64,000 nt of DNA from Flavobacterium sp. MC2016-06 (GTDB lineage: Bacteria; Bacteroidota; Bacteroidia; Flavobacteriales; Flavobacteriaceae), in NCBI RefSeq assembly GCF_009711165.2, contig NZ_WMID02000026.1:14235-78234 (forward strand), given 5' to 3'. The position numbers and the translations under genes were made by a program. This document shows, piece by piece, positions 39,106-58,771 of the stretch. How positions within the stretch are numbered: the stretch's first letter is position 1; each line of letters starts with the position of its first letter. The notes beneath the pieces are model-generated. The model did no database searches, was not told the DNA's origin, and saw only the letters and a program-made list of their open reading frames with translations.

Positions 39106-39135
39106 CAAATATATATAAAAAACAATAATACGCAA
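39106..39135 (-). promoter_or_regulatory. susC promoter (TTG-N19-TATATTTG)
   Basis: On the minus strand, TTG at 39135-39133 is followed after 19 bases by TATATTTG at 39113-39106, a full match to the Bacteroidota -33/-7 layout. The start of transcription would be near 39099 and leave a leader of about 105 bases. The TTG is the end of the operator at 39133-39142. Confidence 0.7.
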
Positions 39136-39142
39136 TCGGTTG
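39133..39142. promoter_or_regulatory. CAATCGGTTG operator O1 (susC promoter)
   Basis: A ten-base near-palindrome with a central CG, as in LacI-family operators. It overlaps the -33 element of the susC promoter, so a bound repressor would block RNA polymerase. The same 10-mer is at five other places in the xylan region. Confidence 0.65.
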
Positions 39143-39483
39143 TGTTAATTATTTTTAGTAATTATAAAAAAATACAGTTTTAAAAAAACATTATATATAT
39201 TTATATCATTAAAATATTGATTATTATTTAAAAACCCCTATTCGGTTTACGAAAACGTTAGAGATAATAAATCGTTTACTTCAAAATCTTAAAAAAAACA
39301 TAAAAAGAGGAAAATCAAATATTTTTTTAACCCCTATATCGTTTTAATTCCATTTGAAATAGTAAGAGGTGTAAAAAAATTGAATAGAGTATTCAACAAA
39401 GGCAGATAATAGAAGTTTTTACGTGCTCTATCACACTATTTTAGATTGAAAACCTATGAATTTTCAAAAAAGGACTAAAAAGG

Positions 39484-39493
39484 CAATCGGTTG
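39484..39493. promoter_or_regulatory. CAATCGGTTG operator O2 (distal, susC gap)
   Basis: Identical to O1 and 351 bases further from susC, directly after the transaldolase terminator. It might be an auxiliary operator for a looped repressor complex. Confidence 0.55.
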
Positions 39494-39503
39494 TTTATTT
39501 TGT

Positions 39504-39541
39504 AAAAAAAATCTCCCTTTAAACAATTTTAAAGGGAGATT
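39504..39541 (-). terminator. Rho-independent terminator of the transaldolase gene
   Basis: A 14-base-pair perfect stem (39510-39523 with 39528-39541, core AATCTCCCTTTAAA) with a 4-base loop is followed on the minus strand by seven or more T (plus-strand A run 39504-39510). It ends the gene at 39570. Confidence 0.9.
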
Positions 39542-39569
39542 AAACGATACTGAAATATTATTAAAACGC

Positions 39570-40226
39570 TTATAAATTCATCTTTTTAGCGTCTTCAACA
39601 AATTGTTTTAATCCAATGTCTGTTAATGGATGTTTTAAAAGTCCTTTTATAGCAGACAATGGCCCCGTCATAACATCAGATCCTATTTTTGCACAATTTA
39701 CAATGTGCATCGTATGTCTAATAGAAGCAGAAAGAATCTGTGTTTCGTAATTGTAATTATCATAGATTTCTCTGATCTCAGAAATTAAATGCATTCCGTC
39801 TGTAGAAACATCATCTAATCTTCCTAAAAACGGAGAAACATAAGTAGCGCCCGCTTTTGCAGCTAATAACGCCTGCCCAGCAGAAAACACCAAAGTAACA
39901 TTAGTTCTTATTCCTTTAGACGAAAAGTATTTACAAGCTTTTACACCATCGCCAATCATTGGCAGTTTTACCACAATCTGCGGATGTAAAGCAGCAAGCT
40001 CTTCTCCTTCTTTTATCATTCCTTCATATTCTGTAGAAATTACTTCAGCAGAAACATCGCCATCCACAATATTACAAATGTCTAGGTAATGCTTTAATAT
40101 ATTTTCTTTTCCTGTAATTCCTTCTTTTGCCATCAAAGACGGATTCGTCGTAACGCCATCTAAAACACCCATAGCCTGAGCTTCTGCAATGTCTTGTAAA
40201 TTCGCAGTATCAATAAAAAATTTCAT
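39570..40226 (-). CDS. fsa: Transaldolase / fructose-6-phosphate aldolase (TalC/FSA family)
   Basis: A 218-residue member of the short transaldolase group (FSA/TalC). The start [20 protein letters not shown] and the [14 protein letters not shown] motif are typical. The Schiff-base lysine is in [12 protein letters not shown], followed by [19 protein letters not shown] and SPFLGRLDD. Short forms act either as transaldolase in the pentose phosphate pathway or as fructose-6-phosphate aldolase. A transaldolase role would draw off pentose phosphates formed from xylulose 5-phosphate, which fits the neighbours. It ends at a strong terminator and is preceded by 700 bases of repeats, so it is probably a single-gene unit. 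Confidence 0.88.
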
Positions 40227-40290
40227 AGTAGTTTGTTTTAAGTTTGGTTAATAGTGGTTGTGAATCGTTTTTATTTCAACAATTTATTCC

Positions 40291-40316
40291 GTAGAGGCGC
40301 ACAGCAGTCCGTCTAA
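40291..40316. repeat. Family E unit (left of nested element A)
   Basis: GTAGAGGCGCACAGCAGTCC, preceded by AACAATTTATTCC, matches the family E unit with one core change. Its facing partner is at 40466-40493. Confidence 0.8.
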
Positions 40317-40331
40317 CGTATTCACATTATT

Positions 40332-40421
40332 TGTCATTGCGAGGAACGAAGCAACCTCGCTAACAATGAAAAATAAAGCTTAGATCTAGCAAATGTGATT
40401 GCTTCGTTCCTCGCAATGACA
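40332..40421. repeat. Intergenic inverted repeat family A, copy 2
   Basis: TGTCATTGCGAGGAACGAAG with mirror arm, about 90 bases, lies between two family E units that face each other, so it seems nested. Confidence 0.85.
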
Positions 40422-40465
40422 AGATTGTGGAAAAAAATTAAGGAATAAATGTAGATTTTCTTTAT

Positions 40466-40567
40466 GTTAGACGCACTGCTGTGCGCCTCTACGGAATAAA
40501 TTGCCGAAAAATGGTCAATAAATTATCCGTATTATTTTTATCGTAGAGGCGCACAGCAGTGCGTCTC
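40466..40567. repeat. Composite element E, copy 3
   Basis: The units at 40466-40493 (TAGACGCACTGCTGTGCGCC) and 40543-40567 (GTAGAGGCGCACAGCAGTGC) face each other over about 50 bases, like those at 25411-25532. Confidence 0.85.
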
Positions 40568-40876
40568 CCGCATGTATAATAAAAAAAAATCCAGTGAACG
40601 AAAATGTGCAGTCCGATGATTTCTATACTTCAAAAAACATTTAATGAAAGAATTAATCCCTTAAATTTCACTAAACAGATTTCATTTTATCATTTACAGC
40701 ATAAAAAGAAACAGTAACTAAACCTTCAACTATTCCTCTAAAATACGGTAGTTCAAAAACTACTCTCATAATCTTCCTGCACATTTTCTTCGTTTCACTT
40801 TAAAATAATCTTTGAAACAGCTTTGAAGTCATTATAACTTTCTACAGCTATAACATTGTGTTTATTTCTTTTAACA

Positions 40877-40909
40877 AGACCTAACAGGTTTTTAAAACCT
40901 GTTAGGTCT
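40877..40909. repeat. Palindrome family D, copy 2
   Basis: The 33-base palindrome AGACCTAACAGGTTTTT with its mirror arm lies 17 bases after the xylose isomerase stop codon. It may form the 3' hairpin of the xylR-xylB-xylA message. Confidence 0.9.
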
Positions 40910-40926
40910 CAGTAAAATTTCACCAA

Positions 40927-42252: not shown

Positions 42253-42259
42253 TTTGCTA

Positions 42260-43744: not shown

Positions 43745-43747
43745 AAC

Positions 43748-44758
43748 TTATAATGATTCTCTTACTATTAAATTTGTTGGCACGTAACACTGAACAACCT
43801 CATCGCGTGTGATAAACGCAGCTGCTTTTGTTCCTAATTCTTTAAAATCAGTTGATACAACTGAAATTCCTTTGTATATAAATTTCTTCATCGGCGTTTC
43901 GTTATACGACAAAAAACCAACGTCTGTTCCGGGTTCTAAATCTTTCTCTTTACATTGTTCCAAAAAGTGTCCCAAAATCCTATCGCTCACACTGATATAA
44001 GCAATTCCTTTTTCAATATTGAACTCTTTTGGATCGGTAATAATTTTATATTCAAAATTAAAATCAGCACAAAATTTCTCAAAATACGACGCTGTTTCTT
44101 TCGGATGATTGGTATATTTTGGATATACAAATTGTATATTTTTATACTTTCTAAACAAATTAACCGCTGGTATCAAAGACTCATAAAATGCTTTTCCAAA
44201 ATCTTGAAAAATGTAATTATTATCCTTTTTCGAATGAATATTCCAATCGATCAAAAGCAGTTTTTCTTTTGAAATTGCCGACAATGTTGGAACAACTTCT
44301 TTATCATCAAAATTCATCACCACATATTTATAATACTTCCCAACACTATTATTAATTATAGTTTTAAAAACATCAATATTATAATGATGAAACTGCACAT
44401 CTGTAATCACATTATCTGCCAGATTATTGACAAACGAATGATATAAAACTTCTTTATACGCTTTGAAAGTATCCAAAACCAAAAGTACTTTTCTCGTTTC
44501 TCCCGAAACATAATAACCTTTATTCGGCACAGAATCGATTACTTTTTGCTCTTTCAATAGCGAGTAGGCCTTAAAAACCGTATCTCTCGACAACTGATTG
44601 GTCTGGCAAATACTATTTACCGACGGCAGTAATTCTCCTTTCTGTAATATGTTCTCTGCTATCGCATTATTAATTCCGTTTACCAATTGCTGATACTTCG
44701 GAATGTCACTTTCATGATTAATAACAAAGACAAATTTCTCCTGATTCTCGTTCTTCAT
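43748..44758 (-). CDS. GntR-type transcriptional regulator with sugar-binding-like C-terminal domain
   Basis: A 336-residue regulator. The winged-helix GntR domain is at about 18-86 (IPKYQQLVNGINNAIAENIL, KGELLPSVNSICQ, LSRDTVFKAYSLLKEQKVID, then PNKGYYVSG). The C-terminal domain resembles the periplasmic-binding/LacI fold (YIFQDFGKAFYESLIPAVNL, FLSYNETPMKKFIYKGISVV). Regulators of this GntR-plus-LacI layout control pentose genes in Bacteroidota and Firmicutes (AraR/XylR-like). The operon with xylB and xylA points to xylose or xylulose as the effector. A short inverted repeat, CATAC-N12-GTATG (44756-44777), overlaps the start and could be its site, but that is weak. Confidence 0.88.
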   Translation of the reverse strand: MKNENQEKFVFVINHESDIPKYQQLVNGINNAIAENILQKGELLPSVNSICQTNQLSRDTVFKAYSLLKEQKVIDSVPNKGYYVSGETRKVLLVLDTFKAYKEVLYHSFVNNLADNVITDVQFHHYNIDVFKTIINNSVGKYYKYVVMNFDDKEVVPTLSAISKEKLLLIDWNIHSKKDNNYIFQDFGKAFYESLIPAVNLFRKYKNIQFVYPKYTNHPKETASYFEKFCADFNFEYKIITDPKEFNIEKGIAYISVSDRILGHFLEQCKEKDLEPGTDVGFLSYNETPMKKFIYKGISVVSTDFKELGTKAAAFITRDEVVQCYVPTNLIVRESL

Positions 44759-45029: not shown

Positions 45030-45085
45030 TTTGCGTAACAATATTAATGAATAATCAAAAATTCAACACAAACGTTCTCGCCATT

Positions 45086-45220
45086 TTTGTCATCCTGACG
45101 AAGGAAGGATCTTCGTTTACAACATCCACAATATTGTCATTTCTTCAAAATCAAAATTATTTTTTTTTAATCTCTTTGCGGAGCTTCTTGCGAGGATTCT
45201 TCGTTCCTCAGAATGACAAG
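45086..45220. repeat. Family B element, copy 2 (degenerate)
   Basis: TTTGTCATCCTGACGAAGGA at the left and a right arm with GATTCTTCGTTCCTCAGAAT then GACAAG. The core is longer and more degenerate than in the copy at 30241-30330. It ends 22 bases before the GH43 stop. Confidence 0.65.
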
Positions 45221-45241
45221 ATTCTGCACAAACTCCTTCAT

Positions 45242-46975
45242 TTAAAAATGATTACTAGAAGCATACATCGCCAAATAAGTTCCCACAAATCCTCCAGCTT
45301 CTTTCGTACTCAAAATAACGCCATCAATATCTTTTGCTAATAAAATCCACTCTCCTTTTGAACTCGTTTTATAATAAAAATCATAAAAACGTGCTCTTCC
45401 TTCTATCTTCAAATACAACTCTTTTGCTTTTGAATTGATTTCACTTTTTGCAATAATCTCCGATTTTCCGTTATCATTTTTAATTGCTGCTTTTTCTAAA
45501 AAAACTTCTTGTTTATTATTCGCATTTAAACGCTTTCCAATCAATAAAAAATGTTTTTCATTTTGAAAAGCAACTAAACCTGCAGCTTGCAAAGTATCTG
45601 TCGTTGTGAATTCTAATTTTGTCGAAGCTTCAAATTTTAAATGCTGTTGTCTTCTTCCAATAAAAGAAAAATTAGTTTCAGTATGAATTGATTCTTTTCT
45701 GGCTTTTATAGCTAGTTTTCCTCCTTTTAAATCATACCATTTTTCAAGTGGCGTTCTAATAAAACTCCATTTTAAATCTAATTTATCAGAAGTAAAATCA
45801 TCATGCGAAGTAAAATTTCCGCTTAATGGTTCTGTTTTTTCTTTTGATAATGGCAAATTTGGTCTTTTATTTATCATCGGAATTGGTTGATTTCCTCCAA
45901 CAATTTCCGGCCAGTTGTTTTTCCATTCCACAGGCATCATAAAAGTTTCTCTTCCTGTATTGTACAAATCCATTCCGTAAGGTCGGCATCCTAAAAAAAC
46001 CGTCCACCAATCGCCGTTCGGCAATTCAACAAAATCAGCATGACCCGTTGTAGAAACTTCATTTTTACGATTCGGATCTAAGTTTTTCTGCGTCATTATT
46101 GGGTTATTCGCATAACTTTCATAAGGTCCAAAAATGTTTTTACTTCTAAAAACAACTTCAGAATGATTAAATCCTGTTCCGCCCTGCGCGCAAATTAAAT
46201 AATAATATCCTGCTTTTTTAATAACATGCGGGCCTTCAATCCAAACTGGTTTTATTGCCATATCGGTTCCTCCGTTAATCACCAATTTTGCTTCGCCAAC
46301 CGTTTTTTTATTCGCTACATCATATTCAAACATATAAATAGCTCTGTGCCCGTCGTGAACCGAAACATTATTTGGCGGTGGCCCGTTGTGCGTGATATAC
46401 GCTTTACCGTCTTCATCAAAAAACAAATCAGGATCAATGCCTTTTACATTTGGAAGCGCAATTGGATTTGACCAAGGTCCCGCAGGATTTTTGGCCGTAA
46501 CAATAAAATTACCAACGCCGCTAACATTCGTACAGATTACATAAAAAATTCCTTTATGGTATCGAATCGTTGGTGCAAACATACCTCTAGACAAACTAGA
46601 ATTATTAAAATCTCCTTGTTCAGGGCGTGTTATTGCATTTCCAATCTGTTTCCAGTTTACTAAATCTGTACTTTCAGAAATAGGCAATCCTGGGAAATAA
46701 CAAAAGGATGAATTCACCAAATAAAACTTATCTCCAACCCTGCAAATACTCGGATCTGGATAAAATCCTGCTAAAATCGGATTGTAATATTCGCTGTCAG
46801 ATTTCGATACATTCACGTAAGCATCATCTTTTCCTTTGTAATCAAACCAATCAAAAGAAGCATAATTTGATTTTGCAATCGGTTGTTTTTTTTGAGAAAT
46901 AATTTTACACGGAAGAGTTGCAATAATCAATACAATTAAAGCACTTTTAAGATTTATTTTTGCTGTTTCGAACAT
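45242..46975 (-). CDS. GH43 beta-xylosidase with C-terminal concanavalin-like domain
   Basis: A 577-residue exported enzyme with an N-terminal hydrophobic signal (LIVLIIATLPCKI). The five-bladed propeller carries the three catalytic acids: the Asp in ILAGFYPDPSICRVG, the Asp in GIDPDLFFDEDG and the Glu in VWIEGPHVIKKAGYYYLICA. The last 190 or so residues form the beta-sandwich typical of GH43 beta-xylosidases (WSFIRTPLEKWYDLKGGKLA). It likely removes xylose or arabinose from xylo-oligosaccharides in the periplasm. It is 21 bases after the second GH43 gene. An exact CAATCGGTTG lies inside the N-terminal codons (46876-46885). Confidence 0.92.
   Translation of the reverse strand: MFETAKINLKSALIVLIIATLPCKIISQKKQPIAKSNYASFDWFDYKGKDDAYVNVSKSDSEYYNPILAGFYPDPSICRVGDKFYLVNSSFCYFPGLPISESTDLVNWKQIGNAITRPEQGDFNNSSLSRGMFAPTIRYHKGIFYVICTNVSGVGNFIVTAKNPAGPWSNPIALPNVKGIDPDLFFDEDGKAYITHNGPPPNNVSVHDGHRAIYMFEYDVANKKTVGEAKLVINGGTDMAIKPVWIEGPHVIKKAGYYYLICAQGGTGFNHSEVVFRSKNIFGPYESYANNPIMTQKNLDPNRKNEVSTTGHADFVELPNGDWWTVFLGCRPYGMDLYNTGRETFMMPVEWKNNWPEIVGGNQPIPMINKRPNLPLSKEKTEPLSGNFTSHDDFTSDKLDLKWSFIRTPLEKWYDLKGGKLAIKARKESIHTETNFSFIGRRQQHLKFEASTKLEFTTTDTLQAAGLVAFQNEKHFLLIGKRLNANNKQEVFLEKAAIKNDNGKSEIIAKSEINSKAKELYLKIEGRARFYDFYYKTSSKGEWILLAKDIDGVILSTKEAGGFVGTYLAMYASSNHF
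46876..46885. promoter_or_regulatory. CAATCGGTTG site O6, intragenic
   Basis: A full match to the operator 10-mer about 90-100 bases inside the GH43 gene. The flanks (TTTGCAATCGGTTGTTTTTT) are like those of the intergenic sites. It may be chance or a roadblock site. Confidence 0.35.
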
Positions 46976-46996
46976 ATTTTTTATCTCGATTTAAAA

Positions 46997-48022
46997 CTAA
47001 TCCTCTTTTCCGTAAGGATCAATCGTTACAATTGAGCCATCTTCAAGATAATCTATTTTGGTAACTTTCATACTTCTTAAATGTGTTACTCCTTTTGATA
47101 AACTTGAGTCGTGGTAAAATAAATACCAATCGTTATCGACTTTACAAATAGAATGATGTGAAGTCCAGCCCACAACAGGATTTAAAATTCTGCCTTGATA
47201 AACAAACGGCCCGTACGGATTATCGCCAATCGCGTAACAAATAAAATGCGTATCGCCTGTAGAGTACGAGAAATAATATTTTTCGTTGTATTTATGAACC
47301 CAAGAAGCTTCAAAAAAACGACGATTATTATCACCTGCTAATAAAACATTTCCATTTTCGTCCAAGATTTTAATTTCTTTTGGTTCTTCGTCAAACTCCA
47401 GCATATTAGCTGTCAATCTAGCTGCAATTGGTCCTAAAGCTTGCTCTTTTCCAGAAGGTTCTTCGTGATCAACATTGTATTTATTGTTTCTATAATTTTG
47501 AAGCTGACCGCCCCAAATTCCTCCAAAATAAATATAATATTTTCCATCTTCGTCTTCAAAAACAGCTGGATCAATACTATAACTTCCTTTAATCGCTTCT
47601 GGCTCTGACTTAAAAGGTCCAACTGGAGAATCGCTTACTGCAACTCCAATTTGGAAAATTCCGTCTGGACGTTTAGCTGGAAAATACAAATAATACTTTC
47701 CGTTTTTGTGTGCAGCATCTGGCGCCCACATTTGTTTCTCGGCCCAAGCAACTTCATCTACATGTAAAGCAACTCCGTTATCTACAGCTTTAGAATCGAT
47801 AGTTTCCATCGAAAAAACGTGATAATCTTCCATTCCGAAATGATCGCCATTATCGTTAAATGGAATTCCTGCATCAACATCATGTGAAGGATAAATATAG
47901 ATTTTACCGTTGAATACATGTGCCGACGGATCTGCTGTATAAATGTGAGATACTAAAGGCTGTGAAATCGCTGCTTTATTAATCTGTTCAAAATTAATTT
48001 GTTCAATACTATCTTCCGGCAT
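46997..48022 (-). CDS. GH43 glycosidase, likely cytoplasmic xylosidase or arabinofuranosidase
   Basis: A 341-residue single-domain GH43 without a signal peptide. The catalytic acids are visible: the Asp in YTADPSAHVFNGKIYIY, the Asp in SYSIDPAVFEDEDGKYYIY, and the Glu in NNRRFFEASWVHKYNEKYYF. Lacking a leader, it probably splits imported xylobiose and other short oligosaccharides inside the cell, next to the symporter encoded 29 bases upstream. The substrate choice between xyloside and arabinofuranoside is not decided. Confidence 0.9.
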   Translation of the reverse strand: MPEDSIEQINFEQINKAAISQPLVSHIYTADPSAHVFNGKIYIYPSHDVDAGIPFNDNGDHFGMEDYHVFSMETIDSKAVDNGVALHVDEVAWAEKQMWAPDAAHKNGKYYLYFPAKRPDGIFQIGVAVSDSPVGPFKSEPEAIKGSYSIDPAVFEDEDGKYYIYFGGIWGGQLQNYRNNKYNVDHEEPSGKEQALGPIAARLTANMLEFDEEPKEIKILDENGNVLLAGDNNRRFFEASWVHKYNEKYYFSYSTGDTHFICYAIGDNPYGPFVYQGRILNPVVGWTSHHSICKVDNDWYLFYHDSSLSKGVTHLRSMKVTKIDYLEDGSIVTIDPYGKED

Positions 48023-48051: not shown

Positions 48052-49485
48052 TTAATTTCTTCTTTCTTTCAAGTCTGATTCAATCTGAACCTCCATTTTT
48101 TTATCAATTTTATAGAAACACAACAAGCCGCATCCTACTAAAAATGGAATGGAAGGAAAAACACTCACTAATAATTTGATTCCGTTTATGGCTGTATCGG
48201 TTTGAACTGCCGAATTTGGTACATAATCAAAAGATCCTAAAAGCAAAGTTGTTAAGGAACCTCCAATACTTAAACCTGCTTTTAAACCTACCATCATGGC
48301 TGAAAATATAATGGCTGTCGCGCGACGGTTATTCAACCATTCTGAATAATCGGCAACATCTGCAATCATCGCCCAAAGAATTGGAATTGTGATTCCGTAG
48401 AAAAATCCGTGTAAAATTTGAGAGATAAATATCATCGGAATATCTCCTGCTGGAAAAAAATAAAAGGCCAGAATAAATAAAGTCGAAATGAACAAGAATG
48501 TTCCAAAGACGTTTCTTTTTCCGTATTTATCGGCTAAATTTTTAGACAATGTAATTCCGACAATCATAAAAATAATCCCGCCCGCATTAAATAGTCCGAA
48601 ACCTGCCGCAACGGGATCATTCCCAAAATGATTCAATCCAATACTTGATAATGTATCTAATATCGGCTGAATAAAAAGTGCTAATTCTTCTTTATTAACG
48701 TAATTTTCAAAATAATACACATAAGAACCACCTTTCATTGCCAAGGTAATAAACACCAAAGTTGTCAACGAAAGCATGATTAGCCAAGGTTTATTTTTTA
48801 CTAAATCGCTTAAATCTTCTTTGATGCTTGATTTTTGTTCTGGTTTTGGAATAATACGCTCTTTTGTAGTCAAAAAAGTGATTAAAAGCATTATCGTTCC
48901 TACGATTGCTAAAACTGTCATTACTTTTTCGATACCAACCGCTTTGTCTCCGTTTCCTGCACTTTTAATGATTCCAAGCATAAAAACCTGAACGAAAAAC
49001 TGTGCAAACATAACTGCCACAAAACGGTAAGAAGACATACTGTTTCTTTCTTTCATGTCGCCCGTAATTACACCGCTTAGAGCAGAATACGGTAAATTGT
49101 TACTTGCGTAAAACAATAGTAAAAATGTATAGGTTATTACCGCATAAATTACTTTTCCGTGGTACGAGAAATTAGGTGTTGAAAAAGCTAATAATGCCAC
49201 GCATCCTAAAGGGATTGCGGTTACTAAAATCCAAGGTCTAAATTTTCCCCATTTTGTGCTTGTTCTGTCTGCTAACACTCCGATAATTGGATTAAAAATA
49301 AAAGCAGCGATTAATCCGACTATTAACATGATTATAGAAGAATCTGTAGGCGATAATCCGTAAATGTCAGTATAAAAATAAGCCAGATACGTCATCAAAG
49401 TCTGGAAAACTAAATTGGCAGCCAAGTCGCCTAAGCTATAACCGATTTTTTCTTTGATGGATAATTTTTGGGAAATTTGATTCAT
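48052..49485 (-). CDS. GPH-family (MFS) sugar:cation symporter
   Basis: A 477-residue inner-membrane protein with about 12 hydrophobic segments. The GPH start (LSIKEKIGYSLGDLAANLVF) and the signature loop NPIIGVLADRTSTKWGKFRPW are typical of the glycoside-pentoside-hexuronide symporters (XylP, XynT, YicJ type). It heads the symporter-GH43-GH43 operon and would import xylo-oligosaccharides or xylosides. Two CAATCGGTTG operators lie 215-305 bases upstream, around a TAAATTTG box. Confidence 0.93.
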   Translation of the reverse strand: MNQISQKLSIKEKIGYSLGDLAANLVFQTLMTYLAYFYTDIYGLSPTDSSIIMLIVGLIAAFIFNPIIGVLADRTSTKWGKFRPWILVTAIPLGCVALLAFSTPNFSYHGKVIYAVITYTFLLLFYASNNLPYSALSGVITGDMKERNSMSSYRFVAVMFAQFFVQVFMLGIIKSAGNGDKAVGIEKVMTVLAIVGTIMLLITFLTTKERIIPKPEQKSSIKEDLSDLVKNKPWLIMLSLTTLVFITLAMKGGSYVYYFENYVNKEELALFIQPILDTLSSIGLNHFGNDPVAAGFGLFNAGGIIFMIVGITLSKNLADKYGKRNVFGTFLFISTLFILAFYFFPAGDIPMIFISQILHGFFYGITIPILWAMIADVADYSEWLNNRRATAIIFSAMMVGLKAGLSIGGSLTTLLLGSFDYVPNSAVQTDTAINGIKLLVSVFPSIPFLVGCGLLCFYKIDKKMEVQIESDLKERRN

Positions 49486-49577
49486 TTGGTTGGTAAGGTT
49501 AGTTTTTGTTTATGTAAGCAAAAGTGGTTTTTATTTTTATAATTCTATTTATTCTTTTTTCAATTTTATCGCAATCT

Positions 49578-49665
49578 TGTCATTGCGAGGAACGAAGCAA
49601 CCTCACTTGTTAGGTCAAACTTTGTAGCTCATTGTTAGTGTGATTGCTTCGTTCCTCGCAATGAC
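49578..49665. repeat. Intergenic inverted repeat family A, copy 3
   Basis: TGTCATTGCGAGGAACGAAG with its mirror arm, about 88 bases, close in sequence to copies 1 and 2. Confidence 0.85.
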
Positions 49666-49700
49666 CAAATCGCTAAAAATCAATCTCATTTTATTTTAAA

Positions 49701-49710
49701 CAATCGGTTG
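49701..49710. promoter_or_regulatory. CAATCGGTTG operator O3 (symporter, proximal)
   Basis: Exact operator 10-mer on the plus strand, about 30 bases downstream of the TAAATTTG box at 49747-49740. Confidence 0.6.
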
Positions 49711-49778
49711 TGTAAAATTATACAAAAAAACATATTATGCAAATTTAGATTACTTTATTTCAAGAATATATTTAAAAA

Positions 49779-49788
49779 CAACCGATTG
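49779..49788. promoter_or_regulatory. CAATCGGTTG operator O4 (symporter, distal)
   Basis: The same 10-mer on the minus strand (plus reads CAACCGATTG), centred 78 bases from O3. The two lie on either side of the TAAATTTG box. Confidence 0.6.
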
Positions 49789-49829: not shown

Positions 49830-50945
49830 TTATTGTTTTACTTCCTTTAACTGCATTACACTGTAATACGCTTTTTTAGGTTTTAGCTTTGTATCAAACA
49901 ATAATGGGTAATTTGTTCTTCCTTTTATCGGCCAATCGTTTAACCAAGATTGCCCGTCATGAACTCCCCAAAAAGTTACGCGGCTTATTTTATCTTTATG
50001 CTTTAAAAATAATTTAAAAATAGACGCATAGCGTTCTGCTAATTTCGTTTGAATAGAATCTGGAAGTGCTTTTGGATAGGGATTCATTTTTGCACTTCCT
50101 TCAAAATTCTGATTAACATCTGCTCCTTTTAAATCCCAAGGATTTGGCAAAACGGTAATGTCTAATTCTGTAAAAGCAACTTTTAATCCCAATGCCGAAT
50201 AAGCCAAAATACTTTTTTCAATTTCTTCTATTGATGGACTTTCTAATCTCCAATGTGCTTGAATACCGACACCGTCAACTTTTCCTCCGGCTGCTCTAAC
50301 TTTTTTGATCAAATTAATAGTTCCTTCTCTTTTTGCTGGTGCTTCGTTATTGTAATCGTTGTAATATAAATCCACTTTTGGATCTGCTTTTGCTGCTAAT
50401 TTAAAAGCATCTGCAAGATAACTTTCGCCAAGCGTATTCAAGAAAATCGATTTTCTTAGTGTTCCATCATCGTTTAAAGCTTCATTGACAACATCCCAAG
50501 AATTAATACTGCCTTTGTATTTAGAAACAATCGTTGTGATGTGATCTTTCATAAACGCTTTCATTTCGGCACTGTCTTTTATTTGTTCCATCCAAGGCGC
50601 GAGCTGGCTGTGCCAAATCAAAGTATGTCCGTGAATAAACATTTTGTTTTTCTTTCCGTATGCTACAAATTTATCACTCAGCGTAAAATCGTATTTGTCT
50701 TTTGCTGGATGTACAAACATCGATTTCATGATGTTTTCTGCCGTTATCGCATTAAATTCTTTATGAATTAAAGAATCTTCTTTGACATTTTTTTCATTAA
50801 TCTGATCTGCGCTTAAAGCAGTTCCGATATAAAAATCGCCTTTGTAACTGTTTTTTAAAGAAGTCGTTTTTTCTGATTTCTGGGCATTACAACTGCCTAG
50901 AATAAAAAGAGATAACAGCGGTAAATAGTGGTTTATTAATTTCAT
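49830..50945 (-). CDS. GH10 endo-1,4-beta-xylanase, compact form
   Basis: A 371-residue lipoprotein (lipobox FILGSCNAQ) that is a plain GH10 barrel without insert. HGHTLIWHSQLAPWM is conserved. The acid/base is in SWDVVNEALNDDGTLR and the nucleophile in VAFTELDITVLP. The downstream WGVHDGQSWLND motif completes the GH10 pattern. With the larger surface enzyme at 30560 this makes two endo-xylanases; this one probably cuts imported oligosaccharides in the periplasm. That division of labour is inference. Confidence 0.95.
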   Translation of the reverse strand: MKLINHYLPLLSLFILGSCNAQKSEKTTSLKNSYKGDFYIGTALSADQINEKNVKEDSLIHKEFNAITAENIMKSMFVHPAKDKYDFTLSDKFVAYGKKNKMFIHGHTLIWHSQLAPWMEQIKDSAEMKAFMKDHITTIVSKYKGSINSWDVVNEALNDDGTLRKSIFLNTLGESYLADAFKLAAKADPKVDLYYNDYNNEAPAKREGTINLIKKVRAAGGKVDGVGIQAHWRLESPSIEEIEKSILAYSALGLKVAFTELDITVLPNPWDLKGADVNQNFEGSAKMNPYPKALPDSIQTKLAERYASIFKLFLKHKDKISRVTFWGVHDGQSWLNDWPIKGRTNYPLLFDTKLKPKKAYYSVMQLKEVKQ

Positions 50946-51051: not shown

Positions 51052-53928
51052 TTATTCTTTCCTAAAACTCTCCAGCGGTCCTAAATACGAATCTCTTAAT
51101 TCGCCAGTTTCTGTTTCTATTACAATTTTTTGAAGCACTAATGCCGGATCGACAGCAAAGATTTTCAAAACGTGATTCCCCGATTTTTCGATAGAATGAG
51201 TTGACGTTATAATTTTGATATTATCTGAAACTGCTTTACTCCAACTCGCTTCAGAACTATCAGCATTTAAATTCATTATTTGCGGTTTTTCAGAATCGAA
51301 AGCAATACCATATTTTAAACCGTCTCCAGTTGTAAAATTAATGGTAGGCGAAAAATAAGCGTGAACTTTTACTGTTCCGGTGCTGAAAAAATGAATGTTA
51401 TATTCTAATCTTGGCGAAGCTTCGGTAACTTCAATTCTTTTTATATTTGAAGGTTTTAATGTTACACCAGATTCCGTCTTTCCAATATTTGGAATTGTTG
51501 TCCATTGAAATGAATTTCCATTTAATGCTTTTGAATAATTTGCTGCTTCGATTGAAATATAACCGTCATTCTCAACAAAACCTTGAATTTCATTCAAATC
51601 GGCATTATTGATATTTACCGAAACTTCAAATTCTTTTTTATTGACTACAATTATAAACTGAGTTTTAGTAATTTCTTTTGGTGCTTTTTTCCAATCTATA
51701 GCAACTGTAATTCTTTCTTCTTTTTTAATTTTTCCTTTAGTTTTCGAAAATATAATCCAATCGTTATCAGACTTTATTTTAAAAGAAAAAGCCTTTATTC
51801 CTAGATTGAGTAAATCGACATAAGATGCTTTATTTTCAAAAGAACTAAACATTGGCAGAACAATCTTTCTAGTACTATTTGGTCTATAAATATTTTCAGT
51901 GTTTTCAACAGTTATTTTAGGATCTGTGCCTTTATATGAAAAAGTAATTGCTGTTTGTGGAATTACATTTGTTTTAGGTTCCTGCCAATTGGTATATCCA
52001 ATGTGCGTCTGAGCCATCATATGATTCCATTTTCCGCCAGCTAATTTAGTGTGGTAATAATTGGTAAGCAGACTGTCTTTTACAAATAAGTCTTTTACTA
52101 TTTTAGTATATTGGTTTCCAGCAATTCTTCCTTGGTCTACATACAACTCATTTTTTGCCGTTGCAGCATAAAGCTCATTTAAGTTTGAACTTGCTAAAAC
52201 TGGATATAAAACCAATTGATAAAAAGCATCTTTATATTCTGGTTTTAATTTTTCATTAATTGAATTGGCTTTGTCTACGAGTTTTTTATAATCGGCAATA
52301 ACACGATCTGATTCGTTATAATTAACAATGCTGTATGTTTTTGCGTCTAATAATTCTGGTTTTCTTCGCGCGTTGTATTTGCTGTATAATTTTATTAATT
52401 GCCCAATTTCTGATGCGTATTCACTTCCGAAATTTTGTTCCGCCCATTGCGTATAATATTGGTCTAAATTTCCTGCATTGAATTTTTCTGGATTCCACGC
52501 CATGTCTAAGAAAAACTCCGTTGGAAATTCCATTGGTTTTATATCGCCGACATTTACAATCCATATTTTATCGACTCCATGCTGATACGCCAAATCCATT
52601 TGTTCCCAAGTTCGCTCGATTTGGTTGGTGTTTATCCATTTGTAATTTCTTGGTCCGCCAACATAATCGTAATGATAATAAATACCATAACCGCCTTTTC
52701 TTGGTTTTGCGTCTAATTCTGGTAATTTTCTAATATTTCCCCAATTGTCATCACATAATAAAAGTGTTATATCGTCAGGAACCCGCATTCCTTTGTCATA
52801 ATAGTCTTGAACTTCTTTGTAAAGCGCCCACATTTGCGGTGTTTCTTCAATTGGTTTTTTCGTTACTTCTTTTATAATATCGCGTTGTGTTTTTACAATA
52901 TTTTCCAGAAGATCAATTGCGGTTCCCTGCGTCATAGGTTCGTCGCCATCTCCACGCATTCCTACGGTTACAATAGTTTCTTTATTGCCCATTCTTTCAA
53001 TTCCTTCTTTCCAAAAAGACTTTAAATTTTCTGAATTAGTGCTGAAATCCCATTTTCCTTTATCGGCTTTTGCCCATTCGGCGTGCGCTCTCGCCAGCGG
53101 TTCGTGATGAGAAGTTCCCATAACAATTCCGTATTCGTCTGCTAAAACTGCATTTTGGGGATCATCCACATAAAACATTCTTCCCCACATCGAAGGCCAC
53201 AAATAATTGCCTTTCATTCTTAAGATTAACTCAAAAACTTTGTCGTAAAATTGAGCGTTAAAACCTCCGTATTTTTCAAATGCCCAGCCCGATAAAGCCG
53301 GCGCTTCGTCATTGATAAAAATTCCTCTGTATTTTACTTTTGGTTCTCCGTTAGAATGAATCCCTGGTAAAACATGCAGTTCTGACTGTTTTTTCACAGG
53401 AACATCTGCCCAGAAATACCAAGGCGAAACTCCAATTTGACTAGACAAATCGTAGATTCCGTAAATCGTTCCTCTTTTGTCTGAACCTGCAATTACTAAG
53501 GCTTTTTTGACTCCATAAAACGGATTTTCGACAATCTGGGTTGTAAATTTTTCCCATTTTCCACGAAGCTGATTAGCATCAATTTTTCCTTCTTTTGCTA
53601 ATTGATCTATAATTTCGCTTTTTCCAAGTGTACCAATAATGACAACAAAGTCCTCTGCTTCTGCTATTCTATTGATCTTTTGCAACTGTAAATCTGAAAC
53701 TCGAAAAATATCATTTTCTAAGTCTTGTGCAACTTTTTTAACTCCAGAAAAATCATTTTGACTGACTAAAATTGCAGCCGTTATTCCTTTTGAAACTAAA
53801 GGGAAATTTTTGGCGGAAGCTGCATTTACTACATATTTCTCTCCATTTATGGCATAAGTTTGCATGCTTATTCCGAAGAAGAAAAGCACTAACATTTTTA
53901 GATTAAATTGAGATTTTATGTTGTTCAT
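51052..53928 (-). CDS. GH115 xylan alpha-1,2-glucuronidase
   Basis: A 958-residue exported enzyme with a signal peptide (MLVLFFFGISMQTYA). The N-domain has the GIYDLSSQIGVSPWYFWADV motif. The catalytic barrel carries the GH115 hallmarks (FINDEAPALSGWAFEKYGG, MKGNYLWPSMWG, GIVMGTSHHEPLARAHAEW, LLLCDDNWGNIRKLP). A long C-terminal beta-rich region follows. The family removes 4-O-methylglucuronate from inside and end positions of xylan, unlike GH67, which acts at chain ends. Both are present here, which fits full use of glucuronoxylan. Confidence 0.95.
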   Translation of the reverse strand: MNNIKSQFNLKMLVLFFFGISMQTYAINGEKYVVNAASAKNFPLVSKGITAAILVSQNDFSGVKKVAQDLENDIFRVSDLQLQKINRIAEAEDFVVIIGTLGKSEIIDQLAKEGKIDANQLRGKWEKFTTQIVENPFYGVKKALVIAGSDKRGTIYGIYDLSSQIGVSPWYFWADVPVKKQSELHVLPGIHSNGEPKVKYRGIFINDEAPALSGWAFEKYGGFNAQFYDKVFELILRMKGNYLWPSMWGRMFYVDDPQNAVLADEYGIVMGTSHHEPLARAHAEWAKADKGKWDFSTNSENLKSFWKEGIERMGNKETIVTVGMRGDGDEPMTQGTAIDLLENIVKTQRDIIKEVTKKPIEETPQMWALYKEVQDYYDKGMRVPDDITLLLCDDNWGNIRKLPELDAKPRKGGYGIYYHYDYVGGPRNYKWINTNQIERTWEQMDLAYQHGVDKIWIVNVGDIKPMEFPTEFFLDMAWNPEKFNAGNLDQYYTQWAEQNFGSEYASEIGQLIKLYSKYNARRKPELLDAKTYSIVNYNESDRVIADYKKLVDKANSINEKLKPEYKDAFYQLVLYPVLASSNLNELYAATAKNELYVDQGRIAGNQYTKIVKDLFVKDSLLTNYYHTKLAGGKWNHMMAQTHIGYTNWQEPKTNVIPQTAITFSYKGTDPKITVENTENIYRPNSTRKIVLPMFSSFENKASYVDLLNLGIKAFSFKIKSDNDWIIFSKTKGKIKKEERITVAIDWKKAPKEITKTQFIIVVNKKEFEVSVNINNADLNEIQGFVENDGYISIEAANYSKALNGNSFQWTTIPNIGKTESGVTLKPSNIKRIEVTEASPRLEYNIHFFSTGTVKVHAYFSPTINFTTGDGLKYGIAFDSEKPQIMNLNADSSEASWSKAVSDNIKIITSTHSIEKSGNHVLKIFAVDPALVLQKIVIETETGELRDSYLGPLESFRKE

Positions 53929-54211
53929 GTTTTTATTTTTAACACATTAGTCTTTCGTTGTCGTGACCTACAGGTTTTAAAAACCTGTTAGGTCTTTTTT
54001 AAGGTTTTCCTCTCCATCTCGGGTCTAATCTTTCAAATCATTTCCTCTTGTTTTGTCATTTCGACGTAAGGAGAAATCTTCACAAGTAGCTCCGCAACGA
54101 AAATCCAATCTTTGTAGAGTTTCTCATGGAGATTTCTCGTTCCTTGAAATGACAAACAGAACGGCTATAGAATACCTAACAGGTTTTGGAAACCTGTTAG
54201 GATAATAATCA
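53929..54211. repeat. Gap with palindrome D copies 3 and 4 around a family B element
   Basis: Palindrome D at 53965-53994 (GACCTACAGGTTTTAAAAAC type, followed by a T-run) and at 54175-54201 bracket a degenerate family B element (54052-54156). The 283-base gap between the uxuA and GH115 genes has no gene. Confidence 0.8.
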
Positions 54212-55384
54212 TTACAAATTCAACTTATAAGCAATTCCCATTTCTAAACCTCTTAATTCGGCAAGACCTTTTAATCTTCCAACGAGAGAATATCCAGGAT
54301 AAGTTTCTTTTTCTTCGTCAACCGTATGCAGAAATCCATGATCGGGGCGCATTGGTAAACTCACTTTTCTTTGATTCATTAAAACCAATATTTTTTCTAC
54401 AATCGCAGCCATTTTAGCATCTCCGCCTAAATGTTCCGATTCTCTAAAAACATTTTCGTTTTCTCTAATGGTATTTCTTAAATGCAAAAAATGAATTCGA
54501 TTTCCGTAATCATCAATTACTTTTTCGAGATTAATTGTTGGATTTGCACCCAATGAACCTGTGCAATAGCACAAACCGTTTGCATTTAAAGGCACGGCTT
54601 CAAAAATTGCTTTTAGATCATTTTCTGTAGAAACAATTCTAGGCAATCCTAAAACCGAAAATGGCGGATCGTCTGGATGAATCGCTAATTTCGAATCGTA
54701 TTTTTCTGCAACTGGAGCAACTTCTGATAAAAAGTAAATCAGGTTTTCTCTAAGTTTGTTATTATCAATATGACTATAATTATCTAAAAGCGAAAGAATT
54801 TGCTCTGCGGTAAAATTTATTTTGCTTCCCGGAAGTCCCAATAATACATTTTTGAAAAGCAATGCTTTTTCTTCTTCCGAAAGTTTGCTTCCAAATTCCA
54901 ACGCGTTCTCTTTTTCTATCTTCGAATAATCATTTTCCGAATTGGGTCTTTTCAACAAAAAAACATCAAAATAAGTAAACGCCTCCTGATTGTATAACAG
55001 CGCTTTACTTCCGTCTTCATTGACAAAATTATGATTGGTACGAACCCAGTCTAAAATTGGCATAAAATTATACGTGATAATTTTAATACCACATTCCGCT
55101 AGATTTTTTAAGCTTATTTTATAGTTTTCAATGTATTGAAGATAATTTCCGTCAGCTCTTTTTATTTCTTCATGAACGGGCAGACTTTCTACAACTGTCC
55201 ATTCTAAACCTGCATTTTTGATAATTTCTTGTCTGGCTTTTATTTCCTCAACTTCCCAAATATCACCAACAGGAATATGATGCAAAGCCGTAACAATTCC
55301 GGTTGCTCCAGCTTGTTTTATATCAATCAGTTTTACATTGTCGCTTGGTCCGAACCAGCGCATTGTTTGCTGCATTTTTATCAT
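54212..55384 (-). CDS. uxuA: Mannonate dehydratase
   Basis: A 390-residue cytoplasmic enzyme that turns D-mannonate into 2-keto-3-deoxygluconate. It follows the UxuA pattern closely: MRWFGPSD at the start, KQAGATGIVTALHHIPVGDI, KLAIHPDDPPFSVLGLPRIV, CTGSLGANPTI and RPDHGFLHTVDEEKETYPGY. The conserved HPDDPP and MRPDHG blocks hold metal-binding and active-site residues. The start could also be the ATG at 55375, which aligns better with other members. It acts on the glucuronate released by GH115 and GH67. Confidence 0.96.
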   Translation of the reverse strand: MIKMQQTMRWFGPSDNVKLIDIKQAGATGIVTALHHIPVGDIWEVEEIKARQEIIKNAGLEWTVVESLPVHEEIKRADGNYLQYIENYKISLKNLAECGIKIITYNFMPILDWVRTNHNFVNEDGSKALLYNQEAFTYFDVFLLKRPNSENDYSKIEKENALEFGSKLSEEEKALLFKNVLLGLPGSKINFTAEQILSLLDNYSHIDNNKLRENLIYFLSEVAPVAEKYDSKLAIHPDDPPFSVLGLPRIVSTENDLKAIFEAVPLNANGLCYCTGSLGANPTINLEKVIDDYGNRIHFLHLRNTIRENENVFRESEHLGGDAKMAAIVEKILVLMNQRKVSLPMRPDHGFLHTVDEEKETYPGYSLVGRLKGLAELRGLEMGIAYKLNL

Positions 55385-55441
55385 ACTAACTACTTATTAA
55401 AAACAGTTACAAAGTCTATTTTCTAATTATTTATTATTTAA

Positions 55442-55472
55442 TCTCGCAAAGTCGCTAAGACGCAAAGTCTTT
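55442..55472. repeat. Single repeat-like string
   Basis: CTCGCAAAGTCGCTAAGACG followed by CAAAGTC resembles frequent flavobacterial intergenic repeats and the core of family H (AAGACGC). Only one copy is seen in the window, between the uxuA and SDR genes. Confidence 0.35.
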
Positions 55473-55514
55473 TAAATAAAACTTTACAAGCAATTTCCAG
55501 TGTCTTTTTGTTTA

Positions 55515-56252
55515 TTAAAAGCCGATGCTGTTACCGCCATCAACTGGCAAAACAGTTCCTGTTGTATATTTTGATTCGCTTAAAGCGAAATAATATACGG
55601 CATCGGCAATATCTGATGGTTCTCCTAAAAAGCCCATTGGCGTTCTTCCTAGCACTTTATTTTTTCTTTCAGGATCGTTGTCCAAAGCTTTTGCTGACAT
55701 TTTGGTTTTTATGAATCCTGGAGCAATACAATTAACACGAATACCAAGTGGCGCCAATTCTACAGCCATTGCTCTTGTCATAGATTCTATCGCGCCTTTA
55801 CTTGCCGAATACGCAATTACTTTTGGAATTCCGTATTGAGATGCCATCGAACTGATGTTTACAATACTTCCTCCTCCATTTTCTTTCATGTTTTTTACCA
55901 CTTCTCTGCTTACCGCAAAAACACTCAAAAGATTAGTGTGAATTATAGACAAGAAATCTTCGTCGGTAACGTCTACAAATTCCTTTTTTAGGTTGATTCC
56001 AGCATTGTTTACCAAAATATCAATTGGCCCATTTTTAGTTAAATTTTCAATCATTGCGGGAATTCCGGCAAGATCATTTAAATCGAATAAAACCGGAATT
56101 GCATTTTCTCCAATTTCCTTGCAAGCTTCTTCTGTTTTCTCTTTTGTTCTTCCTATGATATAAGTTTTGATACCATTATCACATAATTTCTTTGCTGTTG
56201 CAAAACCCAAACCTGAGTTTCCTCCTGTTACAATTGCAGTTTTTGTGCTCAT
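55515..56252 (-). CDS. SDR-family oxidoreductase, likely fructuronate/mannonate reductase
   Basis: A 245-residue short-chain dehydrogenase. The NAD(P) motif is TGGNSGLGFA. NNAG is at about 88-91, and the catalytic Ser-Tyr-Lys is NISSM and YSASKG. The typical end PVDGGNSIGF is present. In Bacteroidota such SDR proteins beside uxuA replace UxuB and reduce D-fructuronate to D-mannonate; the KduD-type 2-deoxygluconate reaction is an alternative. It lies between the uxuA and GH67 genes, 18 bases from GH67, which supports the first role. Confidence 0.85.
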   Translation of the reverse strand: MSTKTAIVTGGNSGLGFATAKKLCDNGIKTYIIGRTKEKTEEACKEIGENAIPVLFDLNDLAGIPAMIENLTKNGPIDILVNNAGINLKKEFVDVTDEDFLSIIHTNLLSVFAVSREVVKNMKENGGGSIVNISSMASQYGIPKVIAYSASKGAIESMTRAMAVELAPLGIRVNCIAPGFIKTKMSAKALDNDPERKNKVLGRTPMGFLGEPSDIADAVYYFALSESKYTTGTVLPVDGGNSIGF

Positions 56253-56270
56253 ATTTTTTTATTTGTAAAA

Positions 56271-58421
56271 TTAATTTCCTGGTGCAAACGGGAACTTCAA
56301 AGATTGGAAATATTCTAAAGACTGCGTTGGTTTTTCAACTCCAATTGGAAGCTCTTTACCAGAATATTGTTGAAAATATAACAAACACGCATCTCGCCAC
56401 CATTTTGCTTCTTTATATTGAATATTTAACAACATCTGAACTTCTTTAAAACGTTGGCTGTCTACATATTTCTCGATTTTATTCCAAGTTTCCTGCATCG
56501 CTTTTACCTGATTTACACCTTCTTGATATTTTAGAGCCATTCCGTCCCAAAGATTATGACCGTCTTTCAGTTTATAATCCCAAGGAACATGATGAAACCA
56601 TAGTAAATCCTTTTCTGGACAGGTTTCTAAATTATCAAAAATTTTCGCTGCTTCAGGTGCGTATTGTGCCACAGCATTTGTTCCAGTTTTTGATCGGTCA
56701 AAACCAATTCCATTTTTATCGGCTTTATGATAATATACCGGATTCCATTCTGGTCTTGACAAATTGCTTACCCACGGTCCCGGCCCGTAATGATGTCCTG
56801 TATCCATAATATGATGTAATCCTAAAGGTGTCATATAATTTACAACCGCTTCACGCGAATTGATCATCATTTCTTTTACGGGACGAATAAAATTTTCATC
56901 GTTACAGAAAGTACTTCGCAGCCATTCGTCAGCAATAATTTCAGAATCTAAATACGGATTCCAAGCCAATCTTCCGAAGCCGTACCAATTTGCCTGCGCA
57001 AAAGGATGTCCTGTCCAATTAATATCATTTCCGATATTGGCAACGCCAGCAATTCCGGTGATTTTATTTTTATATAAAGTGCCATCAACAACTTTTGCAA
57101 CCGTCGATCCTTTGCCTTTTTGATACGTATCTGATTCTAAAACTTCTTGAAATAATTTAGGCAGATAAACCAAATGCGTGCTGAAACCCAAATATTCTTG
57201 TGTAATTTGAAACTCCATCATTAAAGGTGTTTTTGGTGTTGCACCAAATAACGGATGAAAAGGTTCTCTAGGCTGAAAATCGATTGCTCCGTTTTTTACC
57301 TGAACAATTACATTTTCTTTAAATTTCCCATCGTAAGGTTGAAATTCTGCGTACGCTTGTTTTGCACGATCGTTTGCATCATGTTCTGAATATACAAAGG
57401 CACGCCACATAATTATACCGCCAAATGGCGCTACAGCATCGGCCAGCATATTGGCTCCGTCAACGTGGTCTCTGCCATAATTTTGCGGGCCAGGCTGTCC
57501 TTCTGAATTTGCTTTTACCAGAAATCCTCCAAAATCTGGAATTATTGTGTAGATTTCTTTTGCTTTAGCTTTCCACCAATTCGCTATAGCTGCATCTTTT
57601 GGATCTGCCGTTTTTAAACCTCCAATTTCGATTGGAGCAGAAAAACGGGCAGTTAGATAAACCTTTATTCCGTAAGGTCTGAAAACTTTGGCTAAAGCTT
57701 CTACTTTTTCTAAATATTGCGGAGTCAAAATCAATGCATTTGCATTTACATTGGTCAAAACAGTTCCGTTGATTCCTATCGAGGCATTCGCTCTAGCGTA
57801 ATCAATATAGCGTTGGTCTATAAAATCGGGTAATTTCTGCCAATTCCAAAGTGAGAATCCGGCATAACCTCTTTCGACTGTGCGATCTAAATTGTCCCAA
57901 TGATTTAAGATTCTGATATTCGTTTTTGGCGAATCAATTATGTCTAAATTTTGAATTGATTTGTTGGTTTGAATCAATCGCAAAAAACTATAAATGCCGT
58001 ACAAAACCCCCACATCTTTTTTTCCGCTGATTAAAATGTGCTTTTTATTTTTTATGGAAATAGATTTTATAATAAATCCTTCGTCATTAATTTGATTAAA
58101 ATCGATTTCTGAAGCTTTTTGAATTTCTGAATTTAATGAAGATTCTGAGCCTATAATAATGGAAGAAGCTTGGTCTAATTTTGATTTAACCGTTATTTTG
58201 GTTCCAAGCATTTCTGTCAAACCATTTTCTAATTCTTTAGAAGAAGTAACAGCAGTTTCAGAATTCCCTAAAGAAACAATTCCCTGAATATCAGAAAGGT
58301 ATTTTGTTCTTAAATCAGTATTTGCAATTTTATCGTATTGAAGCCATAATTTATAGTCTTTTTGAGCTGATGCTGAAAAAGAGATTATAAGAAACAGGAA
58401 AATTAATCTTAATGAAATCAT
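56271..58421 (-). CDS. aguA: GH67 alpha-glucuronidase
   Basis: A 716-residue exported enzyme (signal peptide, FSASAQ). The GH67 catalytic acids are seen: the Glu in FLVKANSEGQPGPQNYGRD, the Asp in NGAIDFQPREPFHP, and the Glu in PLMMEFQITQEYLG. Other blocks include NHWDNLDRTVERGYAGFSLW, and a C-terminal WHHVPWDYKLKDG region. The enzyme removes (4-O-methyl)glucuronate from the non-reducing end of xylo-oligosaccharides. It is the first gene of the aguA-SDR-uxuA unit and has a CAATCGGTTG operator 126 bases upstream. Confidence 0.96.
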   Translation of the reverse strand: MISLRLIFLFLIISFSASAQKDYKLWLQYDKIANTDLRTKYLSDIQGIVSLGNSETAVTSSKELENGLTEMLGTKITVKSKLDQASSIIIGSESSLNSEIQKASEIDFNQINDEGFIIKSISIKNKKHILISGKKDVGVLYGIYSFLRLIQTNKSIQNLDIIDSPKTNIRILNHWDNLDRTVERGYAGFSLWNWQKLPDFIDQRYIDYARANASIGINGTVLTNVNANALILTPQYLEKVEALAKVFRPYGIKVYLTARFSAPIEIGGLKTADPKDAAIANWWKAKAKEIYTIIPDFGGFLVKANSEGQPGPQNYGRDHVDGANMLADAVAPFGGIIMWRAFVYSEHDANDRAKQAYAEFQPYDGKFKENVIVQVKNGAIDFQPREPFHPLFGATPKTPLMMEFQITQEYLGFSTHLVYLPKLFQEVLESDTYQKGKGSTVAKVVDGTLYKNKITGIAGVANIGNDINWTGHPFAQANWYGFGRLAWNPYLDSEIIADEWLRSTFCNDENFIRPVKEMMINSREAVVNYMTPLGLHHIMDTGHHYGPGPWVSNLSRPEWNPVYYHKADKNGIGFDRSKTGTNAVAQYAPEAAKIFDNLETCPEKDLLWFHHVPWDYKLKDGHNLWDGMALKYQEGVNQVKAMQETWNKIEKYVDSQRFKEVQMLLNIQYKEAKWWRDACLLYFQQYSGKELPIGVEKPTQSLEYFQSLKFPFAPGN

Positions 58422-58771
58422 TTACTAAATTTAATTTATTCTTTAAAATACTTTATTCTGAATGAATCAATATTTTACAACATAATAAAAGTATTTGATA
58501 AAATTTTAATCTAAAAAATACATTATTAAAAATAAAACAACAATTGCAATCGGTTGCGTAAAAATATAGTATTGTTATTTAAGAAAAAAATTTTAGTAGG
58601 CTTTTTTTAAATAAAATGATGTTAAAGTCAAAAAATAGGTTTCTAGATTGGATTTAAAGTTTTGTAGTGATGAAAACTATTCTTTAAAACAAAAGATATT
58701 CAGTACTTTTGAAGTTATGCAGTCAATCTGAGTCTCTCCGCTTATTATAACTGCCGCAAAATGAAATTAAT
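58422..58771. other. Divergent gap between the GH67 and AraC genes
   Basis: This 350-base gap has the operator O5 (58547-58556). On the minus strand, 17 bases after a TTG (58540-58538), is TATTTTTT (58520-58513), a near match to the -7 box. TACTTTTG at 58704-58711 on the plus strand is a -7 candidate for the AraC gene. No other gene is seen. Confidence 0.45.
58547..58556. promoter_or_regulatory. CAATCGGTTG operator O5 (GH67)
   Basis: Exact 10-mer, 126 bases before the GH67 start and just upstream of a possible weak promoter. Flanked by TTG and CGTAAA as in O1 and O3. Confidence 0.6.

Follow-up and report, generated by a model that had tools for sequence, protein, structure and literature searches.

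Control of polysaccharide utilization loci (PULs) in Bacteroidota has mostly been described through hybrid two-component systems (HTCS), SusR-like regulators and extracytoplasmic function (ECF)/anti-sigma systems. Xanthomonas and Caulobacter use a LacI-type XylR, which represses xylan loci in the former and xylose genes in the latter and is relieved by xylose or short xylo-oligosaccharides (PMC13282271, PMC10380989). Within Bacteroidota, the LacI-family proteins UxuR, UxaR, KdgR and UxmR regulate uronate catabolism in Bacteroides, where xylose is under an NrtR-family XylR (PMC3878776), and Gramella flava has a named lacI gene in its xylan PUL (PMC5306329). Here, a window of 64,000 nucleotides from Flavobacterium sp. 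MC2016-06 (64 kb, contig NZ_WMID02000026.1, C26:14235-78234), which contains a glucuronoxylan locus, was analysed with regard to a short repeated element and the LacI-family protein encoded at 61266-62306. It is very likely that the repeat, CAATCGGTTG or in its better form RCAATCGGTTGY, is the operator of this protein, which would repress xylan genes by promoter blockage until a glucuronoxylan-derived sugar releases it. The observations behind this reading are the sites themselves, their conservation, their co-occurrence with and linkage to the regulator gene, and their overlap with predicted promoters.

The mechanism is of a known kind. Similar to XylR of Xanthomonas and Caulobacter, the protein would be a repressor of the LacI type acting on xylan loci that include TonB-dependent transporters (PMC13282271, PMC10380989), whereas xylA, which belongs to the regulon of XylR in that other phylum, has no such site here: none precedes the xylA/xylB/GntR cluster of the window, and none was found before XylA in eight loci of other genera (0/8). 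The Bacteroides regulators UxuR, UxaR, KdgR and UxmR also represent the LacI family in Bacteroidota, although they are listed for monosaccharide pathways (PMC3878776). The Gramella flava PUL shares the lacI gene, with neither an operator nor a regulon given in section 13 of that report (PMC5306329). By sequence, the closest solved relatives are CcpA (7.6e-48), a global catabolite regulator unlike the LacI protein of the window, and PurR (1.2e-32), both of which are distant. The solved relative 3ctp is a pentulose complex, and the xyl-box operator of XylR appears to differ from CAATCGGTTG. Among the papers listed by searches of an open-access library, none named the operator, the regulon or its spread in Flavobacteriaceae, which is weak evidence of absence.

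Six copies of the 10-mer CAATCGGTTG are present in the window, five of them intergenic, and the coordinates and strands given in the first-pass annotation were all confirmed. Its estimate of fewer than 0.1 chance copies in 64 kb agrees with 100 dinucleotide shuffles of the window, which had a mean of 0.09 copies (maximum 2). The sites, the predicted promoter elements next to them and the proposed reader are as follows.

39106..39113, minus strand: predicted susC -7 box TATATTTG, a perfect TAnnTTTG 19 bp after the operator TTG.
39133..39142, plus strand: operator 1 of susC, exact 10-mer; its TTG at 39133-39135 (minus strand) overlaps the predicted -33 element.
39484..39493, plus strand: distal second susC operator, exact 10-mer, 351 bp upstream of the first.
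46876..46885, plus strand: doubtful or auxiliary site at the 5' end of the GH43a open reading frame (ORF), exact 10-mer and 12-mer, intragenic.
49701..49710, plus strand: promoter-distal (downstream) operator of the GPH-GH43b-GH43a operon, exact 10-mer.
49740..49747, minus strand: predicted -7 box TAAATTTG for the GPH operon, flanked by its two operators; a perfect TAnnTTTG at N31 from the upstream operator's TTG.
49779..49788, minus strand: upstream operator of the GPH operon, exact 10-mer, 78 bp from its partner.
58547..58556, plus strand: operator of the GH67-SDR-UxuA-GH115-GH10a operon, exact 10-mer.
61266..62306, minus strand: LacI-family repressor, proposed reader; a LacI/GalR family member by PF00356 (41.9 bits, cut-off 27) and PF13377 (106.1 bits, cut-off 26.5).

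The intragenic copy at 46876 lies approximately 90-100 bp past the start codon of the GH43 ORF (45242-46975), and the sites recorded for the close relative G075 do not include it. All six copies are in or beside xylan genes, as first described; however, a search of the whole genome (6.17 Mb, 121 contigs) found 20 copies of CAATCGGTTG, of which 10 belong to xylan-type loci and 10 do not (9 of these 10 fall within ORFs of 100 aa or more), so the bare 10-mer is not a sufficiently specific marker. Spread through the genome, which had been named as an outcome that would speak against a regulon, is not seen for the asymmetric 12-mer RCAATCGGTTGY. Each of its 10 genomic places belongs to a xylan-type locus, with six in the window, three in the GH3/susCD cluster of C20 and one before a GH8 gene (C18), and the reversed control has none. 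Adding one base on each side of CAATCGGTTG removes the background, and RCAATCGGTTGY is the better form of the operator. The degenerate 12-mer RCAAYCGRTTGY, with a YCGR centre, has 11 exact places (reversed control, 1), the additional one, a palindrome, falling within an ORF of C2. With its central CG and a single mismatched pair, CAATCGGTTG has the form of LacI-family operators, among which an even palindrome with central CG was reported for 1173 of 1303 (PMC4052901), and the perfect palindromic forms CAACCGGTTG and CAATCGATTG are present at some orthologous positions.

Conservation was examined in 80 named loci of congeneric genomes (from fewer genomes, some giving two) that encode a LacI relative of 82-97% identity and in which the recognition helix is nearly unchanged. 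At least one site was found in 74 of them. Within 500 bp upstream of the gene, sites were detected for GH67 in 53/53 loci, GPH in 36/37, susC in 8/8 and a second susC type (susC2) in 6/6, and for none of GH10a (0/56), UxuA (0/56), GH115 (0/16) and XylB (0/7), a pattern expected if GH67, GPH and susC are the first genes of their operons. Of all 12-bp windows in the upstream alignments, the one with the operator is the most conserved for GH67 (0.99 vs. a median of 0.74, 53 aligned rows) and for GPH, where it is the operator at 49701 (0.99 vs. 0.56, 37 aligned rows), and upstream of susC (8 aligned rows) the -7 box ranks first. The arrangement of sites also recurs: a second site lies 308-350 bp further upstream in all seven other susC loci, and among 37 GPH loci a pair is spaced at exactly 78 bp in 21 and at 79 bp in one, with a single site in 14 and none in one.

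The same element was found beyond the genus. Among 249 genomes of the family, 24 matched LacI with an E-value no higher than 1e-90, and 20 kb were examined around 21 out-of-genus LacI loci (52-75% identity, in 19 genomes, after exclusion of a truncated hit) as well as around five more distant ones (39-44%). Sites were present in 19 of the 21 loci, preceding GH67 in 14/17 and GH3 in 11/13, while the reversed control was absent from all 26. Absence of the 10-mer from orthologous loci that keep LacI, which the first-pass annotation had considered fatal to its proposal, is thus not what was seen, either within the genus or outside it. Of the more distant loci, two with LacI of 43-44% had no sites, and three with LacI of 39-42% (L216-L218) had only palindromic CAATCGATTG sites, with the LacI homologue beside an SDR gene; these three are possibly a second, related regulon.

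A -33 TTG element is typical of flavobacterial promoters. The motif TAnnTTTG has been placed at -12 to -5 in flavobacterial sigma-A promoters (PMC9723704). Counted from the terminal TTG of the operator over the 80 loci (353 distinct oriented half-sites, with the expectation derived from all TTG trinucleotides in these loci), TTG-N19-TAnnTTTG was observed 15 times vs. 0.31 expected and TTG-N31-TAnnTTTG 21 times vs. 0.30, these being pooled over genes and over loci that are related to each other. In loci of other genera, TTG-N20-TAnnTTTG occurred three times (the expectation, 0.03, was computed for N19 only). In the genome itself, the promoter overlap that marks LacI-type repressors of sugar catabolism was found at three of the ten sites, where a perfect TAnnTTTG follows the operator TTG at N18-N19 (susC, N19; susC2 on C20, N19; GH8, N18), the others having none at this spacing.

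From these positions a mechanism may be proposed, in which binding, repression rather than activation and the identity of the inducer are inferred. When inducer is lacking, a LacI dimer would occupy operators, single or in pairs, at the GH67, GPH-GH43 and susCD operon promoters and, outside the window, at the divergent GH3/susCD promoter, and the bound protein would block RNA polymerase. At susC the operator would contain the -33 TTG of the promoter, and at GPH two operators would bracket the promoter; we infer occlusion from the susC overlap together with the position of the second predicted -7 box, that of GPH, between its operators. The susC operator holding the TTG of TTG-N19-TAnnTTTG suggests repression by occlusion, helped by second operators. 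Release would be brought about by a sugar that arises in the cytoplasm as glucuronoxylan is degraded, perhaps xylose or a xylo-oligosaccharide, or a glucuronate-type product. Helical phasing of the paired operators is not claimed, as the susC spacing varies (308-351 bp) and the 78-bp GPH pair lies in conserved DNA.

The alternative that survives best, although unlikely, is that the LacI protein works as an activator, alone or in addition to being a repressor. In favour of this, the upstream GPH operator lies approximately 40 bp upstream of the -7 box and the GH67 operator is upstream of a less clear promoter; against it, the susC, susC2 and GH8 operators of this genome hold the -33 TTG at N19, N19 and N18, respectively, the second GPH operator is downstream of the -7 box, and most LacI-family proteins bind without ligand (PMC4052901).

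With regard to the reader, the distribution of the LacI protein was compared with that of the sites in 299 congeneric genomes. An orthologue (E below 1e-150 and at least 66% identity, the next class being at most 42%) was present in 63 and missing in 236. The mean number of RCAATCGGTTGY sites was 7.30 in the LacI-positive genomes (at least three in 61/63; reversed control, 1.03) and 1.48 in the LacI-negative ones (at least three in 49/236; reversed control, 0.90), and among genomes of at least 4.8 Mb it was 7.93 (n = 46) vs. 2.09 (n = 11), although congeneric genomes are related and the comparison is not independent sampling. It is rather improbable that another LacI-family protein, or several LacI paralogues jointly, reads the sites. 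The genome has seven LacI genes, homologues of 39-42% lie near palindromic CAATCGATTG in 3/3 loci, so that related proteins may read related operators, and 11 of the 63 LacI-positive genomes have two close copies (at least 66%) with nearly the same recognition helix. Yet linkage to the sites across genera was seen only for the LacI of the window, and the asymmetric form of the operator follows the group of this protein. The genomes with two close copies (G229, G006, G063, G216, G248, G066, G060, G049, G184, G111 and G054) apparently have one shared operator type.

The next candidate is the GntR-type regulator of the xylA/xylB cluster (43748-44758), which is encoded inside the xylan locus and is found in 61 congeneric genomes, 56 of them among the 63 with LacI. 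Presence and absence separate the two proteins: all seven genomes with LacI and without GntR have 3-10 sites, whereas none of the five with GntR and without LacI has any (one of these is 68% and one 89% complete). In addition, the start of the GntR cluster itself has no site in 7 of 10 loci and only distant ones (333-478 bp) in the other three. GntR as the reader was rejected on the presence/absence comparison and is very improbable. The AraC-type regulator at 58772-59560 was rejected as well, since at the thresholds used none of the 80 LacI loci yielded a match to it. Finally, short and identical copies could be those of a mobile or structural element, but this explanation, like chance, is rejected as barely credible given the shuffles and given that conservation is limited to approximately 12-16 bp with divergent flanks, before fixed genes and across genera. 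The LacI protein at 61266-62306 is very probably the reader, and the choice of it as the best candidate in the initial annotation is supported by co-occurrence, linkage and the failure of GntR in the presence/absence comparison.

Several observations weigh against the operator assignment or narrow what it can explain. A close GH67 (at least 70%) is found in 61/63 LacI-positive genomes and in no LacI-negative genome, so that co-occurrence alone cannot separate the reader from the gene set; in favour of the assignment, four LacI-negative genomes with a GH67 of 54-57% identity had no sites in 7 kb around each GH67. At least five sites occur in 19 of the 236 LacI-negative genomes, one of which has 11 (in several of the 19, the listed places are scattered over contigs), while the LacI-positive genomes G031 and G203 hold only one and two. 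Six further LacI proteins of the genome are possible readers. Six of the 80 named loci had no site within the stretches covered, and the GH67 operator is not followed by a perfect TAnnTTTG at N16-N23. The site before GH8 is kept in only 1 of 19 GH8 orthologues. Moreover, lacI itself has no upstream site in this genome or in 63 of 81 congeneric loci (present in 18/81, and in 6/21 loci of other genera), and autoregulation was rejected because the site is absent in most loci; autoregulation was found in 72% of the LacI-family transcription factors studied (PMC4052901) and is not a defining requirement.

Outside the window, three sites lie between the divergent GH3 and susCD genes on C20. In a comparison of 30 of the LacI-positive genomes, all 14 GH3 orthologues (at least 73%) had a site, vs. 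1 of 16 GH3 paralogues (at most 46%). The C18 site is 75 bp before the GH8 gene, and the following regulator gene begins 53 bp downstream of GH8.

L044:4939-9075: HTCS gene by the operator-bearing GH8.

Cotranscription of GH8 and this gene would place an HTCS under LacI control in this strain. Conservation of GH8/HTCS as a regulon member was rejected, given the 1/19 above; with one mismatch allowed, 18 of the 19 loci together yielded a single exact and a single near site. The xylan loci of Bacteroides and Prevotella with HTCS share the substrate, but the main loci here carry the LacI operator instead. The earlier statement that no hybrid two-component regulator is present holds for the 35 ORFs of the window scanned against Pfam and fails genome-wide, in view of the HTCS beside GH8 on the other contig.

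The remaining genes of interest in the window are given below.

30560..32764, minus strand: GH10 with CBM4/9 (Pfam).
32777..34144, minus strand: surface glycan-binding protein (Pfam).
34181..35839, minus strand: SusD (Pfam).
35826..38993, minus strand: SusC-type TonB-dependent transporter (TIGR04056).
43748..44758, minus strand: regulator with GntR helix-turn-helix and periplasmic-binding-type sensor, the rival reader (Pfam).
45242..46975, minus strand: GH43 of beta-xylosidase type, GH43a (Pfam).
46997..48022, minus strand: GH43b (Pfam).
48052..49485, minus strand: GPH-family sugar symporter (TIGR00792), heading an operated operon.
49830..50945, minus strand: GH10 xylanase, GH10a (Pfam).
51052..53928, minus strand: GH115 alpha-glucuronidase (Pfam).
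54212..55384, minus strand: UxuA mannonate dehydratase (Pfam).
55515..56252, minus strand: SDR oxidoreductase, probably in the GH67 operon (Pfam/NCBIfam).
56271..58421, minus strand: GH67 alpha-glucuronidase (Pfam), heading an operated operon.
58772..59560: AraC-type regulator.

The window also encodes a transaldolase-like protein, xylose isomerase, xylulokinase and an FAD monooxygenase. The AraC-type regulator and the FAD monooxygenase (58772-61179) sit between GH67 and lacI; the latter, too, has no match in the 80 loci at the thresholds used, and the two look like a local insertion. Upstream of GPH, an inverted-repeat-like cattgcgaggaacgaagcaa and its complement occupy 49570-49670, where the consensus of relatives has a gap, and a similar stretch is found near 45060-45230. 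The region 18140-25390, with genes for SusD, SusC with an STN domain, FecR and an ECF sigma factor and adjoining thioredoxin-like genes, is an anti-sigma-regulated transporter separate from the xylan regulon.

The proposal of a simple repressor switch for the whole glucuronoxylan locus is retained as one operator regulon over the xylan genes, not as a switch for everything in it: the xylA/xylB/GntR genes have no site and the wider regulon of this genome would include an HTCS. As the xylA cluster of the window has no site, the GntR protein (43748-44758) is the probable regulator of xylose catabolism and would control xylAB instead. A broader view, which is possible but tentative, is that of a family-wide flavobacterial xylan repressor with an operator fused to the promoter, distant susC operators and bracketing 78-bp GPH operators, standing, in this strain, above an HTCS in two tiers; the right half-site would supply the -33 TTG (TTG-N18/20-TAnnTTTG), and the same bases would serve both polymerase and repressor.

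The LacI sugar-sensing switch appears to have been kept across a family of plant-fibre-eating bacteria. A one-component LacI regulon over separate xylan loci, recurring in several genera of Flavobacteriaceae, is a directly testable model, which predicts genes acting together on glucuronoxylan and separates the breakdown of the polymer (LacI) from xylose catabolism (probably GntR). In addition, the operator offers an inducible element for Flavobacterium genetics.

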